From Aminobacter anthyllidis (GTDB lineage: Bacteria; Pseudomonadota; Alphaproteobacteria; Rhizobiales; Rhizobiaceae): a stretch of 64,000 bases of DNA. Below are positions 3,846 to 15,424 of this stretch, one piece after another. The notes beneath the pieces are model-generated. The model had not been told where the DNA came from, did no database searches, and worked only from the letters and a program-made list of their open reading frames with translations. Where the stretch lies: the NCBI RefSeq assembly GCF_018555685.1, contig NZ_JAFLWW010000008.1, forward strand, positions 124,001 through 188,000, given 5' to 3'. A program made the position numbers and the translations under genes. Within the stretch, counting starts at the first letter, position 1; the number at the start of each line of letters is the position of its first letter.

Positions 3846-3984
3846 CGTTCGAAACCTGTTTACGATATCTCCAAGATTGTTCAGCGTTTGAATTTTTTCA
3901 ACCCACTATGAGATTTTAATTGATTGTGACGGTCGCGAGCCATATATCCGCGCTTGCCCAAAGTCGCACGTGCCTGTGGGTGTC

Positions 3985-4395
3985 CGCCGATCCCTCGAAT
4001 GGCGAGGAAATCGGTAAGGTAACTGGAGCTAACCCCTCCAGTCGATTTAGCGGCCAACCGCAAAATCGAGGACACCTTGAAGCAACGACGGTGCGGGCCT
4101 TTCTGGTTCTCTTCCGGCTGTCCAAAAGCCGGGGTTACTGAAGAGGCACACCTTCATTGCCGGCAGTGCGGAACGGGTCTTCCCATTTCCAAGCCAAGGC
4201 AGACAAAGCGAACCGAAGCCGGGCTGGCTTAGGTTCACCGCCGCGTGAAGCGCATTTATGGTTCCAGGGTCTCCACAGGCTGGTTCCATCAAATAGCGGT
4301 CATGTCTTTGTCCACCGCGGGATTCCGCGGCCGGGAACGGCCGTCCCGCAGCTTGATGATTTTTTGCGCGGCAGGACCGCGCGATGGAGAGACCT
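3985..4395 (+). promoter_or_regulatory. Structured mRNA leader of the decarboxylase gene, candidate speF RNA element
   Basis: About 550 bp without a convincing gene precede the decarboxylase. The RNA would fold into several hairpins: CCGAT-CCTCG arms at 3987-4014, CTGGAG/CTCCAG at 4023-4041, CCGGCT/AGCCGG at 4114-4132, a long GAACC..AAGCC/GGCTT..GGTTC stem at 4210-4236, and GCGCGG/CCGCGC at 4366-4382, ending 3 nt before the GGAG ribosome-binding site (4386-4389). CCGCGG/CCGCGG (4315-4330) competes with a longer GCGGGA/TCCCGC pairing (4317-4349). A T6 run follows at 4360-4365. A long conserved RNA motif, speF, is known upstream of this decarboxylase class in alphaproteobacteria. The assignment rests on position and structure, not on an alignment. 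Confidence 0.55.
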
Positions 4396-5529
4396 ATGGC
4401 CACTCAGCGCATCCTCGACTTCCTCGCCACCCGACGCCCGTCCGGCCCTTGCCTCGTCGTCGACCTCGATGTCGTGCGCGACAATTTCCGCGCCTTCGAG
4501 AAGGCGATGCCGGAGTCCAAGGTCTATTACGCGGTGAAGGCAAATCCGGCGCCTGAGATCCTGCGCCTGCTTGCCGGCATGGGCTCGTCCTTCGACACGG
4601 CTTCGGTTGCCGAAATCGAGATGGCCATGGATGCCGGCGCTCCGGCTGAGCGCATTTCCTTTGGCAACACCATCAAGAAGGAGCGCGACATCGCGCGTGC
4701 CTTCGAGCTCGGCATTCGCCTGTTCGCCGTCGACTGCGTCGAAGAGGTCGAGAAGGTTGCGCGCGCCGCTCCAGGCGCCCGTGTGTTCTGCCGCGTCTTG
4801 ACCGATGGCGAAGGTGCCGAATGGCCGCTGTCGCGCAAGTTCGGCTGCGTGCCTGACATGGCCGTCGACGTGCTGCGCCTTGCCAAGTCGCTTGGCCTCG
4901 ACGCCTACGGCGTGTCGTTCCATGTCGGCTCGCAGCAGACTGACCTGACCGCCTGGGATCGTGCGCTGGCCGACGCCAAGAAGGTGTTCGCCAAGCTCGC
5001 CGAAGAAGGCATCACGCTCGGCATGGTCAACATGGGCGGTGGCTTTCCGACGCGTTACCTGCGTGACGTGCCGGCGGCCCAGGCCTATGGCCAGGCCATC
5101 TTCGACGCGCTGTCCAAGCACTTCGGCAACAACATCCCGGAGACCATCATCGAGCCGGGTCGCGGCATGGTCGGCAACGCCGGCGTCATCAAGTCGGAAG
5201 TCGTGTTGATTTCGAAGAAGGCCGACAACGACAATGTGCGCTGGGTGTTCCTCGATATCGGCAAGTTCGGCGGTCTCGCCGAGACGATGGACGAGGCGAT
5301 CCGCTACCCGATCGTGACGGCGCGTGACGCAGATGAGAAGTCGCCTTGCGTGCTCGCCGGCCCGACCTGCGACTCGGCCGACGTCATGTACGAAAAGACG
5401 CCGTACCCGCTGCCCCTGTCGCTGACCATCGGCGACGAGGTGCTGATCGAGGGCACCGGCGCCTACACGACGACCTATTCATCGGTCGCCTTCAACGGCT
5501 TCGAGCCCCTCCGATCCTACGTGATCTGA
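4396..5529 (+). CDS. speF: Ornithine/lysine decarboxylase, PLP fold type III (group IV)
   Basis: 377-residue PLP enzyme of the ODC/diaminopimelate decarboxylase fold, expected to convert ornithine to putrescine (possibly also lysine to cadaverine) for polyamine synthesis. Seen: the PLP lysine Lys48 in YYAVKANP, the glycine loop HVGSQ, phosphate-binding EPGRGMVG, and the catalytic Cys325 in GPTCDSAD contributed by the partner subunit of the dimer. The size matches compact rhizobial ODCs. ATG 4396 is chosen over ATG 4384 because GGAG lies 6 nt upstream and MATQRILDF starts the conserved part. The gene follows a long structured leader (see 3985-4395). Some members also accept lysine, so the substrate should stay open. 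Confidence 0.92.
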   Translation: MATQRILDFLATRRPSGPCLVVDLDVVRDNFRAFEKAMPESKVYYAVKANPAPEILRLLAGMGSSFDTASVAEIEMAMDAGAPAERISFGNTIKKERDIARAFELGIRLFAVDCVEEVEKVARAAPGARVFCRVLTDGEGAEWPLSRKFGCVPDMAVDVLRLAKSLGLDAYGVSFHVGSQQTDLTAWDRALADAKKVFAKLAEEGITLGMVNMGGGFPTRYLRDVPAAQAYGQAIFDALSKHFGNNIPETIIEPGRGMVGNAGVIKSEVVLISKKADNDNVRWVFLDIGKFGGLAETMDEAIRYPIVTARDADEKSPCVLAGPTCDSADVMYEKTPYPLPLSLTIGDEVLIEGTGAYTTTYSSVAFNGFEPLRSYVI

Positions 5530-5629: not shown

Positions 5630-6274
5630 ATGCATACCGAAAAAGAAACCATCGAGACCTCGCCCGACATCCTGATCGTGGCTGAAAACCCTGCCGACGT
5701 CGCCGCTCGCGAGGCGCTGCTCGACCGTGCCATGGGCCCGAAGCGGCGCAAGAAGTCGTCGGAGAAGCTGCGGCGGGGCCGCCGCCCGTCCGAGGGCCTG
5801 GCGTTGATCGCGCGCACTGAAGAGGGCTCGCTCGTCGGTACCGTGCGGCTGTGGGATGTGCGCCTGGGTGAGGGCGGTCCGACTGCGCTGCTGCTAGGCC
5901 CGCTCGCTGTCGATCCGTCGGCTAAGGGTGCCGGCATCGGTTCGGCGCTGATGCGCCAGGCGATTGCCGAGGCTGGCCGGCTTGGTCACCGCGCCATTTT
6001 GCTGGTCGGCGATGCGCCTTATTATGCGCGGTTCGGCTTCACCACTGAGAAGACCGGACAGCTTTCGATGCCGGGCCCTTACGAGCGCGACCGTTTCCTG
6101 GCGCTGGAACTCGTGCCTGGAGCGCTGGACGACGCCAAGGGCGTGCTCAAGGCTGCCGGCCGCAAGCTCGGCGCCTCGGTTCGCAAGTCAGATTCGGCTT
6201 TCGGAAAGAGCGATGTGGCAACGGACAGCGTCAGTACATCCTTTGGGCGTCCCGCAGGACGCGTGGCGCTCTGA
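5630..6274 (+). CDS. GNAT-family N-acetyltransferase
   Basis: 214-residue GNAT acetyltransferase using acetyl-CoA. The core fold runs from about residue 15 to 155. The acetyl-CoA pyrophosphate loop is visible as a GxGxGSALMRQAI-like stretch (KGAGIGSALM), preceded by the beta-4 strand LLLGPLAVDP and followed by a YYARFGF motif as in YhbS-like members. The C-terminal 50 residues are low in hydrophobic content and Ser/Lys/Arg-rich, beyond the usual domain. The start has AAGGA 8 nt upstream. It lies 100 bp downstream of the decarboxylase on the same strand; acetylation of a polyamine is possible from context, but the YhbS-like core does not name a substrate. Confidence 0.85.
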   Translation: MHTEKETIETSPDILIVAENPADVAAREALLDRAMGPKRRKKSSEKLRRGRRPSEGLALIARTEEGSLVGTVRLWDVRLGEGGPTALLLGPLAVDPSAKGAGIGSALMRQAIAEAGRLGHRAILLVGDAPYYARFGFTTEKTGQLSMPGPYERDRFLALELVPGALDDAKGVLKAAGRKLGASVRKSDSAFGKSDVATDSVSTSFGRPAGRVAL

Positions 6275-13667: not shown

Positions 13668-13780
13668 ACGTATCGCGACCGTGAAGGTTAGCGGAAAAGT
13701 TCGCGTCTAAAACCCGTTGCCCGTGGAAAACCTGTTCACATGCAAGGTCCCCACAACCGTTAGCGCCAATCCGCCACCCC

Positions 13781-15424
13781 TCAATGCAGCTCGATGTGGC
13801 CCTTGTGGGTGCCAAGCGCTGCGGCGAGGCTGGTGGGGCGTTCGATCAGGCGGTGGACGCGTGGCGGCTGGGCGCCGCTGTGAAGCGCCCTGAGCTTGTC
13901 GCCGATGACGGCGTCGGCGTGGGTGGCGCGCTGGTTGTGGCGGATATATTCGAGCCAGGTCGGCGTGTGGTAGGTCTCGACCCATATCTCCGGGTTTTCG
14001 AGGTCGCGCGCCAGCACCCAGTTGCGGGCACCGTCGCGGCGGCGCACGCGGCGACGTTCGGTCATGGCATCGAGGAATGCCGGCACGTCCTCCTCGCGGA
14101 TGATGAACTCGATCGATATCACGATGGGGCCTGAGCGCGGCCGGACGTCGAGCGCCAGATGCGGCTCGCGGAAACGGTTGAGCGGGTCGAGGTTGAGTGC
14201 GGTGTGCTCGGGCAGCGGTAAAAGGAACCCGATCGCCGCGCCGACCAGCATCACGACACCGGCGGCGACGAGGGCTGTCGCAGCGCCGTTGCTTTCGGCG
14301 ACGAGGCCCCAGATCCAGCTGCCCAGCGCCATGCCGCCGAAGGTCGCCATCTGGTAGATCGACAGCGCCCGGCCGACGACCCAACGCGGGGTCGACATCT
14401 GCACGGTGATGTTGAAGTGCGACAGCGCCAGCACCCAGCAAGCGCCGCCGATGAGCAGGCCGCCGCTGGTGAGCCAGGCGTTGGAGCTCCAGGCTGCGAT
14501 CCAGCTGCATAAAGCAAAGCCGAGGAAGGCCGAGCGCACGATGGATTCGCTCGACATGCTGCTGCGGATGCGGCCGCTGATCAGTGCGCCGCCGACAGCG
14601 CCGATGCCGAAGGCGCCGAGCATGATGCCGTAGGTGAGAGGGCCGCCAGCGACGAGATCGCGGGCAACCAGCGGCAGCAGCGCCTGGATGACGACGGCGG
14701 TGAAGCCGAAAGCGAAGCTGCGCAACAGCACCTTGCCGATGTTGGGCGACATGGCGACATAGCGGAGGCCGGCGCCCATGGCCTGGCCGAGCGTTTCGCG
14801 CGGCAGCGGGTTTGCCGGGTATTCAGGACGCCAGCGGAACAGTACGAAGATGATCGCGAAGTAGCTCAGCGTGTTGACGGCGAATGCCGCCGCCGCACCA
14901 GCCGTGGCGACGATGATGCCGCCGATGGCCGGGCCGACGCTGCGCGTCATGTTGAAGCCCATCGAATTGAGCGCGACGGCCGCCGGCATGACCGTGCGCG
15001 GGACCATGTCGCCGACGGAGGCCTGCCAGGACGGGTTGTTGAGGGCCGTGCCGCAGCCGATGAGGAAAGTGAAGGTGAGCAAGAGCCACGGCGTGATCAG
15101 GCCGAGATAGGCAAACAGCGTCAGCATCGCCGAGACGGCAAACATGAAGCATTGCGCGGTCAGCATGACACGGCGGCGGTCGTAGCTGTCGGCCAGCGCG
15201 CCGGAGGCGAGCGAAAACAGCATGATCGGCAGCGAGATGGAGGCCTGGACCAGCGCCACCATGTCCGACGACGTGGCGATCGAGGTCATCAGCCAGGCCG
15301 CGCCGACGGACTGGATCAGGCTGCCGAAATTCGACGCCAGGCTGGCGAACCAGACGGAACGGAAGATGCCGTGCTTGAATGGCGCGAGTGCCGAACCTTG
15401 CTCGTACTGGTGGTCGTCGTCCAT
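13781..15424 (-). CDS. MFS exporter with C-terminal dimeric alpha/beta-barrel-like domain
   Basis: 547-residue protein of the MFS_3 type (EntS/transmembrane secretion effector class). Residues 1-410 contain about 12 membrane helices. The MFS loop motif is present after helix 2 as GALADSYDRRRV. The C-terminal 130 residues (about 415-547) form a soluble domain starting IVISIEFIIREEDVPAFLDAM, resembling the antibiotic-biosynthesis-monooxygenase-type fold found fused to this MFS subgroup. Likely exports a small molecule by proton antiport; substrate unknown. It interrupts the flagellar run between fliQ and flhA and is followed by repeat elements, so it looks like an insertion. Same strand as the flagellar genes. 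Confidence 0.88.
   Translation of the reverse strand: MDDDHQYEQGSALAPFKHGIFRSVWFASLASNFGSLIQSVGAAWLMTSIATSSDMVALVQASISLPIMLFSLASGALADSYDRRRVMLTAQCFMFAVSAMLTLFAYLGLITPWLLLTFTFLIGCGTALNNPSWQASVGDMVPRTVMPAAVALNSMGFNMTRSVGPAIGGIIVATAGAAAAFAVNTLSYFAIIFVLFRWRPEYPANPLPRETLGQAMGAGLRYVAMSPNIGKVLLRSFAFGFTAVVIQALLPLVARDLVAGGPLTYGIMLGAFGIGAVGGALISGRIRSSMSSESIVRSAFLGFALCSWIAAWSSNAWLTSGGLLIGGACWVLALSHFNITVQMSTPRWVVGRALSIYQMATFGGMALGSWIWGLVAESNGAATALVAAGVVMLVGAAIGFLLPLPEHTALNLDPLNRFREPHLALDVRPRSGPIVISIEFIIREEDVPAFLDAMTERRRVRRRDGARNWVLARDLENPEIWVETYHTPTWLEYIRHNQRATHADAVIGDKLRALHSGAQPPRVHRLIERPTSLAAALGTHKGHIELH

Follow-up and report, generated by a model that had tools for sequence, protein, structure and literature searches.

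ar45 and speF as probable halves of one pseudoknotted leader RNA upstream of an ornithine decarboxylase gene

The RNA that precedes a fold-III ornithine/lysine decarboxylase gene (ODC) in the window, i.e., the whole 64,000-nt stretch of Aminobacter anthyllidis DNA analyzed here, matches two Rfam families in tandem: ar45, filed as a small RNA (sRNA), and speF, known as a leader. Comparative sequence analysis indicates that the two are almost certainly halves of one pseudoknotted cis element, present almost only before ODC. Our preferred explanation, to which we give a probability of roughly 0.6, is a leader RNA that acts in cis, measures some 440 nt, is joined by a pseudoknot (PK-A) and responds to polyamines, a 3′ hairpin (H2) gating the ribosome site of ODC. 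Taken separately, control of ODC in cis by the leader is very probable, and direct ligand sensing by it has somewhat less than an even chance. The best reading is thus an orphan riboswitch-like translational leader, whose ligand is at the candidate stage. In one respect the locus is ordinary, since it belongs to known Rfam families and precedes the gene that one would expect; its interest lies in the likely union of two families in one RNA, the covarying pseudoknot, and an extra conserved hairpin near the ribosome site.

Two Rfam families cover the leader

An Rfam scan of the window placed a speF match 9 nt downstream of an ar45 match, both far above their gathering cutoffs (Table 1) and each the single match to its family in the genome. 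The gene that starts at 4396 is of the COG0019 type that defines the speF context. It matches PF00278 as well as PF02784, and its nearest PDB relative is a lysine/ornithine decarboxylase; the genome holds two more distant ODC relatives (33 to 34% identity). The original prediction of a speF-type leader before a decarboxylase is borne out by this search. It had also described a long structured leader at 3985 to 4395. That span does fold strongly (z = −3.35, beating 100 of 100 dinucleotide shuffles), and the 3′ hairpins named in it can be drawn, but it starts too late: ar45 begins at 3956, which leaves the 5′ strands of helices P1 through P4 (3956 to 3985) before or at the edge of the span. Computed over 3954 to 4398, the whole leader reaches z = −5.00. 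Missed in the earlier reading were the identity of the 5′ half as a separate Rfam family and the best-supported pairing, which joins both families.

A strict sigma-70 scan returned no promoter at the leader, so that the elements at 3920 to 3948 stay a putative promoter. Directly 3′ of ODC, on the same strand, is a GNAT acetyltransferase gene (5630 to 6274, +).

Table 1. Features of the leader and its surroundings in window coordinates. Congeners are 10 genomes, the window's own included.
Feature	Position	Strand	Sequence or partner	Basis or remark
Probable promoter	3920-3948	+	TTGATT 3920-3925, CATATATC 3941-3948	Kept in 10 congeners
Whole leader RNA, approximate transcription start to ODC start codon	3954-4395	+		Fold z −5.00; start placed from promoter position
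5′ domain, ar45 (RF02347)	3956-4102	+	Model 1-148	163.2 bits, gathering cutoff 40
P1, 5′ strand	3956-3959	+	GCCC, partner GGGC 4095-4098	Rfam structure; 195 to 217 of 220 paired per position; near-invariant
P2, 5′ strand	3963-3966	+	GUCG, partner CGAC 4086-4089	Rfam structure; three pairs in 214-215 of 220, outer pair in 115 of 220
PK-B, 5′ strand	3965-3969	+	CGCAC, proposed partner GUGCG 4166-4170	213 to 220 of 220 paired per position, near-invariant; suggestive only
P3, 5′ strand	3971-3973	+	UGC, partner GCA 4082-4084	Rfam structure; 220 of 220, invariant
P4, 5′ strand	3978-3985	+	GGGUGUCC, partner 4070-4077	Covariation
PK-A, 5′ strand, between P2 and P1 3′ strands of ar45	4090-4093	+	GGUG	Covariation
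Linker between ar45 and speF	4099-4111	+	CUUUCUGG in window	UUUUUUGG in many relatives
3′ domain, speF (RF00518)	4112-4262	+	Model 1-153	104.3 bits, gathering cutoff 37
P5 hairpin	4114-4132	+	CCGGCU-GUCCAAA-AGCCGG	Both-side changes at all 6 pairs; NUCCANN loop
PK-A, 3′ strand, speF hairpin loop	4149-4152	+	CACC	Covariation with 4090-4093
UGCC	4158-4161	+	Partner GGCA 4145-4148 (Rfam) or GGCA 4198-4201	
H2 hairpin	4258-4289	+	Loop GGUCUCCACAGG 4268-4279, presenting UCUCCA	Stem overlaps last 5 nt of speF match
Anti-RBS stretch	4267-4275	+	4267-4273 with 4389-4395, or 4270-4275 with 4385-4390	
Short competing hairpin of the original prediction	4315-4330	+		Not conserved
Long hairpin	4317-4349	+	GCGGGA/UCCCGC, inner CGGCCG/CGGCCG	120 of 120 cells, 10 congeners
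Terminal hairpin next to RBS	4366-4382	+		51 of 60 cells paired
Ribosome-binding region (RBS)	4385-4395	+	UGGAGAGACCU	Identical in 10 congeners
ODC, fold-III ornithine/lysine decarboxylase	4396-5529	+		PF02784 3.6e-58; PDB 5gjm 1.9e-63

ar45 and speF occur as one unit before ODC

The order was sampled with 297 genomes, matches being counted at E values up to 0.001. An ar45 match was found in 127 genomes and a speF match in 145 (113 and 118, respectively, over the cutoffs). In 123 of the 127 ar45 matches, speF follows 6 to 12 nt 3′ on the same strand, with a gap of 8 nt in 95, 7 nt in 16, 9 nt in 10, 6 nt in one and 12 nt in one; reading of the sequence showed a speF core and ODC at the remaining four as well. 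Judged by genome arrangement, ar45 does not behave as a free-standing sRNA gene, speF being present after all 127 matches.

Viewed from speF, ODC lies downstream of 140 of the 143 loci examined, and the three loci that lack it score only 26 to 28 bits for a cutoff of 37. There were 146 matches in all; the three set aside, in G101, G246 and G263, have coordinates that adjoin ODC. A sequence pattern detected the ar45 5′ core in 138 of the 140 speF-ODC loci, including 18 of the 20 that have no Rfam ar45 match. ODC orthologues (E up to 1e-100) are present in 150 of the 297 genomes, 147 of them with a leader match; the ODC of the other three (G003, G043 and G083) belongs, at 57 to 66% identity, to the more divergent ones. 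In the class sample, speF matches occur in 15 of 385 genomes, 10 of which lie outside the order.

Pooling all samples yielded 235 distinct leaders; removal of five leaders in which the pattern detected no 5′ core left a working set of 231. Left out of the leader counts were three sub-threshold loci without ODC (L155 to L157), one locus at a contig end (L147), and eight loci of one genus whose GAAAAGGC escaped the search pattern (L068, L069, L070, L072, L076, L081, L082 and L086, with L200 a duplicate of one); two wrongly anchored leaders (L120 and L181) were excluded from later counts. An ODC start is missing after two of the 235 leaders, L017, where the gene is broken in the alignment near its start, and L222, where there is no ODC. 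The latter exception belongs to G430, a genome of the window's family (L222/L289, G430:C25, speF at 130407-130556, 98.5 bits). Its leader directly precedes a GNAT gene 61% identical to that of the window, and the 12 kb that were read contain no ODC; it looks like a case in which ODC was deleted and the leader kept.

A covarying pseudoknot joins the two families

Covariation was scored with our own R-scape-like script (not R-scape itself) on 220 distinct cores, giving 14,535 column pairs, and compared with 60 null alignments in which the inferred substitutions were re-placed on the tree. The top two of all column pairs are the inner pairs of PK-A, a 4-bp helix that links the 3′ end of ar45 to a speF loop. 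They exceed every null score, as do one P4 pair and one off-register neighbor of PK-A. ar45 and speF are thus shown by comparison to form one fold, since the GGUG of ar45 has its partner in the CACC of the speF loop; on one strand, PK-A is collinear with P2 and P1.

Among the leaders read, PK-A takes forms that include GGUG:CACC, GUAG:CUAC, GUAA:UUAC, GAAC:GUUU and GGAC:GUCU; misfits also occur, e.g., GAUC opposite GUUC in seven leaders. When 76 diverse leaders were aligned separately, 94.0% of the PK-A cells proved to be paired, versus 71.0% after shuffling and at most 75.0% after sliding, and 67 cells carry double changes, versus 31.3 in shuffles. Only the middle two pairs carry double changes, variation in the outer ones is one-sided, and 18 of 301 cells are unpaired; in these 76 leaders, neither the number of pairs with double changes nor that of pair types is higher than in shuffles. 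On a tree of ODC proteins covering 225 leaders, each side of PK-A changes class at least eight times, in step with the other side: GG goes with CACC-like (132) or GTYY (7) partners, GT with CTAC/TTAC in 69 of 69, and GA with GTYY in 17 of 17. The eight left-out leaders of one genus have GGAU opposite GUCC and can form PK-A too.

P4 and P5 covary as well, the innermost P5 pair being unpaired in 20 of the 76 leaders. P1, P2, P3 and PK-B are near-invariant and therefore allow little or no covariation test, and PK-B is kept as suggestive because its four double changes all lie within one genus. Both GGCA partners of UGCC are likewise near-invariant, and covariation does not separate them.

H2 and the other 3′ hairpins

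Of 125 leaders from outside the window's family, 110 contain, in the stretch from speF to the start codon, a hairpin whose loop is a seven-base NUCCANN and whose stem has 4 or more pairs; the corresponding figures are a mean of 1.7 (maximum 6) in 50 shuffles and 1 in coding DNA of the same length. Hairpins of this type use 28 different sets of four closing pairs. Relative to the Rfam speF match (n = 109), 92 lie wholly beyond it, 5 overlap its end, and 12 have their loop inside it. The window's family has a larger H2 loop, a seven-base loop being closed by a stem in just 5 of 106 leaders; the family labels behind these counts (125 outside, 106 inside) were assigned by locus number. In the congeners the H2 stem is fully paired (inner 40 of 40 and outer 40 of 40 cells).

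The H2 loop can pair with the RBS. The minimum-energy fold of 4263 to 4398 joins 4267-4273 to 4389-4395, and UCUCCA at 4270-4275 complements UGGAGA at 4385-4390 in 10 of 10 congeners; the hairpin and the pairing with the RBS use shared bases. Over 216 leaders, the pairing energy was −9.18 kcal/mol with a leader's own RBS and −9.09 kcal/mol with permuted ones (standard deviation of the permuted means, 0.10), which gives no sign of specificity, and −5.63 kcal/mol in a coding-window control. As the leader's own site brings no gain over permuted ones, this pairing is put forward as a plausible closing step of the modeled leader.

P5 carries the same motif, with NUCCANN occupying its loop in 228 of 231 leaders. 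The first and seventh loop bases of P5 are linked: where the first is G, the seventh is A in 90 of 93; a first U is matched by C in 51 of 66, and a first C by A or C in 69 of 69. The same classes hold in H2 (15 of 19, 24 of 24, and 173 of 173), although the permutation test of this link ignores kinship. The link between bases 1 and 7 of the UCCA loops (window 4120-4126 and equivalents) resembles the 32-38 rule, by which two positions of the tRNA anticodon loop are tied to each other. Mimicry of a tRNA anticodon is not claimed because position 6 varies.

The remaining 3′ hairpins fared unequally. A switch between the pairings at 4315-4330 and 4317-4349 had been proposed, and it is unsupported, since conservation extends to the long hairpin but not to the short one; the switch was rejected. 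The short hairpin is paired in 53 of 60 cells, with 1, 3 and 3 of its 6 pairs lost in three congeners and no compensation; the long one is intact in 10 of 10 congeners (60 of 60 cells in its outer part and as many in its inner part), and two cells show compensatory changes. The last hairpin, said to abut the RBS, does so and is kept in 8 of 10 congeners, but its columns misfit in the two most divergent ones, where a shifted replacement hairpin can be seen by eye. The T6 run pointed out in the same region differs in length and composition between congener species, and a terminator scan of 3850 to 4420, limited to short loops and blind to long-range stems, was empty. Since the run varies and the scan found nothing, no terminator is supported there, and we reject the T6 run as one.

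Sensing leader, attenuator or separate RNAs

The preferred reading, a polyamine-responsive translational leader, can be laid out as follows. An aptamer-like core (3956 to about 4201) would respond to polyamine status and pass its state to the 3′ part. With H2 folded as a hairpin the ribosome site would be open; with the UCUCC of the H2 loop paired to it, the site would be closed. The discrete ar45 RNA of Sinorhizobium and Bartonella would be the 5′ domain, freed at the U-rich linker by termination or cleavage, rather than the product of a gene of its own. Counting against this reading are the six pathway compounds that did not bind in 2005, H2 loops that favor their own RBS no more than permuted ones, the near-invariance of P1, P2, P3 and PK-B, the Bartonella Northern blots interpreted as ar45 expression independent of speF, the six leader genomes without a homospermidine synthase match, and the G430 leader without ODC.

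Published accounts have treated the 5′ half as an RNA in its own right. At the leader site, the sRNA SmrC45 had its 5′ end mapped and its length estimated at 181 nt (PMC2780559); SmelC706, of 148 nt, is listed as type 1, trans-encoded, and partly overlaps C45 (PMC2873474); and a 2008 prediction paper noted possible independent transcription of the speF element as smrC45 (PMC2573895). For Bartonella, ar45 is described as expressed independently of the speF leader, an interpretation of Northern blots in a paper that also cites Hfq co-immunoprecipitation (PMC7717549). The discrete ar45-sized RNA in both S. meliloti and Bartonella, together with these data, would suit a trans-acting Hfq-binding sRNA next to a separate odc leader. 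Such independence is very improbable given the constant order and spacing of ar45 and speF, which were never found apart in the order sample, and the covarying helix that joins them; anyone looking for trans targets of ar45 may be following a leader fragment. A short RNA is also what a transcription attenuator would release, P1 and the U tract ending ar45 early and read-through yielding the odc mRNA. We regard this as possible but rather unlikely. The longest T run of the linker is 6 in 112 of the 231 leaders, 5 in 14 and 4 in 3, and del Val et al. (2007) assigned SmrC45 a Rho-independent terminator, but at an estimated length of 181 nt, not 148 (PMC2780559). In 102 leaders, the window's included, the longest run is at most 3 (3 in 96, 2 in 6), and the short-loop scan of the window found no terminator. 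Cleavage in the linker would yield an identical short RNA, and the PK-A partner is transcribed only after the U tract, so that PK-A cannot decide termination there.

The leader might instead be read by a protein. An RNA-binding protein that recognizes P5 and H2, both NUCCANN, and blocks or opens the site would account for the loop motif and the like 1-7 link that they share and would explain the negative ligand tests, but we consider it unlikely: there is no candidate protein, H2 has a larger loop in the window's family, and the kinship-blind permutation test weakens the 1-7 link. A translated leader peptide that senses ornithine, as speFL does in E. coli, is extremely improbable and was rejected. 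At 4140 to 4159 in the window, GAAGAGG and a conserved UUG resemble a Shine-Dalgarno sequence with a start codon, yet the frame from this UUG runs for 2 to 526 codons (median, 36) without a common stop in 231 leaders.

Homospermidine as a candidate ligand

Since 2005, speF has stood as a riboswitch candidate lacking a ligand, and the ar45-speF composite shows which construct to use; PK-A offers a clean compensatory-mutant test. That the ligand is unresolved, as the original prediction had it, agrees with PMC1273637 and PMC11477304. Its suggestions of ornithine, putrescine and spermidine run counter to a 2005 experiment on the A. tumefaciens leader (−400 to +3), in which in-line probing showed binding for none of six pathway compounds, these three included (PMC1273637). 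Homospermidine was not among the compounds of that panel, and for this reason the compound, the obvious one outside the panel, is worth testing as a ligand, no more. In S. meliloti, Odc2 is reported to make virtually all putrescine, and homospermidine is among the soluble polyamines (PMC13293326).

The window genome encodes a homospermidine synthase (G000:C29:103955-105397) 23 kb upstream of ODC, on the opposite strand and before the window start. The protein has PDB entry 4plp as its best match (2.3e-245) and no NCBIfam match. Relatives of the synthase (E up to 1e-80) are present in 153 of the 297 genomes and in 141 of the 147 leader genomes; one of the six leader genomes without a match is only 58% complete, and the synthase also occurs in 12 genomes that lack the leader. 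This co-occurrence is context, not proof, because the counts are uncorrected for kinship and because of these six and 12 genomes. In 33 genomes picked for having both genes close on one contig, the synthase gene lies 30 to 2604 nt downstream of ODC on the same strand. The gap is 630 to 1090 nt in 20 of the 33, which leaves room for a GNAT-like gene.

A homospermidine riboswitch, in which the pathway end product would bind the pseudoknotted core and close the ribosome site of ODC, is improbable on present grounds; in some genomes this control would concern ODC together with the synthase gene just downstream. If true, two RNA families now catalogued as unrelated would together make up a natural polyamine riboswitch.

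Relation to known elements

The leader corresponds to the speF element of Corbino et al. (2005; PMC1273637) in gene class, position and sequence. In the available part of that paper, neither the pseudoknot nor the UCCA hairpin is described, and the current Rfam model represents the 3′ half only; the composite nature of the leader is partly seen there already. Work from 2018 found additional conserved speF structure, according to PMC7266159, and the updated structure may already include PK-A or the UCCA hairpin. That paper aside, no report of a pseudoknot or of homospermidine for the speF element is apparent in the accessible portions of the literature, PMC1273637 and PMC11477304 included. The ar45 match of the window spans the full 148-position model, in agreement with the 148 nt of SmelC706, which overlaps SmrC45. 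The family is filed as a separate sRNA, whereas each of its 127 matches in the order sample forms the 5′ domain of an odc leader, with predicted pairing to speF.

As in translational riboswitches, a conserved pseudoknot core is followed in ar45-speF by a variable part that extends to the ribosome site; unlike them, ar45-speF is a candidate, for which six ligands failed. The speF leader of E. coli and Salmonella (speFL/orf34) is likewise a long structured leader of an ornithine decarboxylase gene, but it acts via a translated leader peptide, and its decarboxylase has another fold. Leaders of the window type have no conserved leader ORF among the 231 analyzed.

Two loci of the genome samples stood out. 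A second decarboxylase copy with 64% identity (G286:C35:73700-74830) has no Rfam speF or ar45 match, and the first copy in that genome differs in this respect. In another genome, speF matches of equal score at 13728-13883 and 4518011-4518166 of one contig (G351:C1), near both of its ends, are probably an unclosed assembly overlap.
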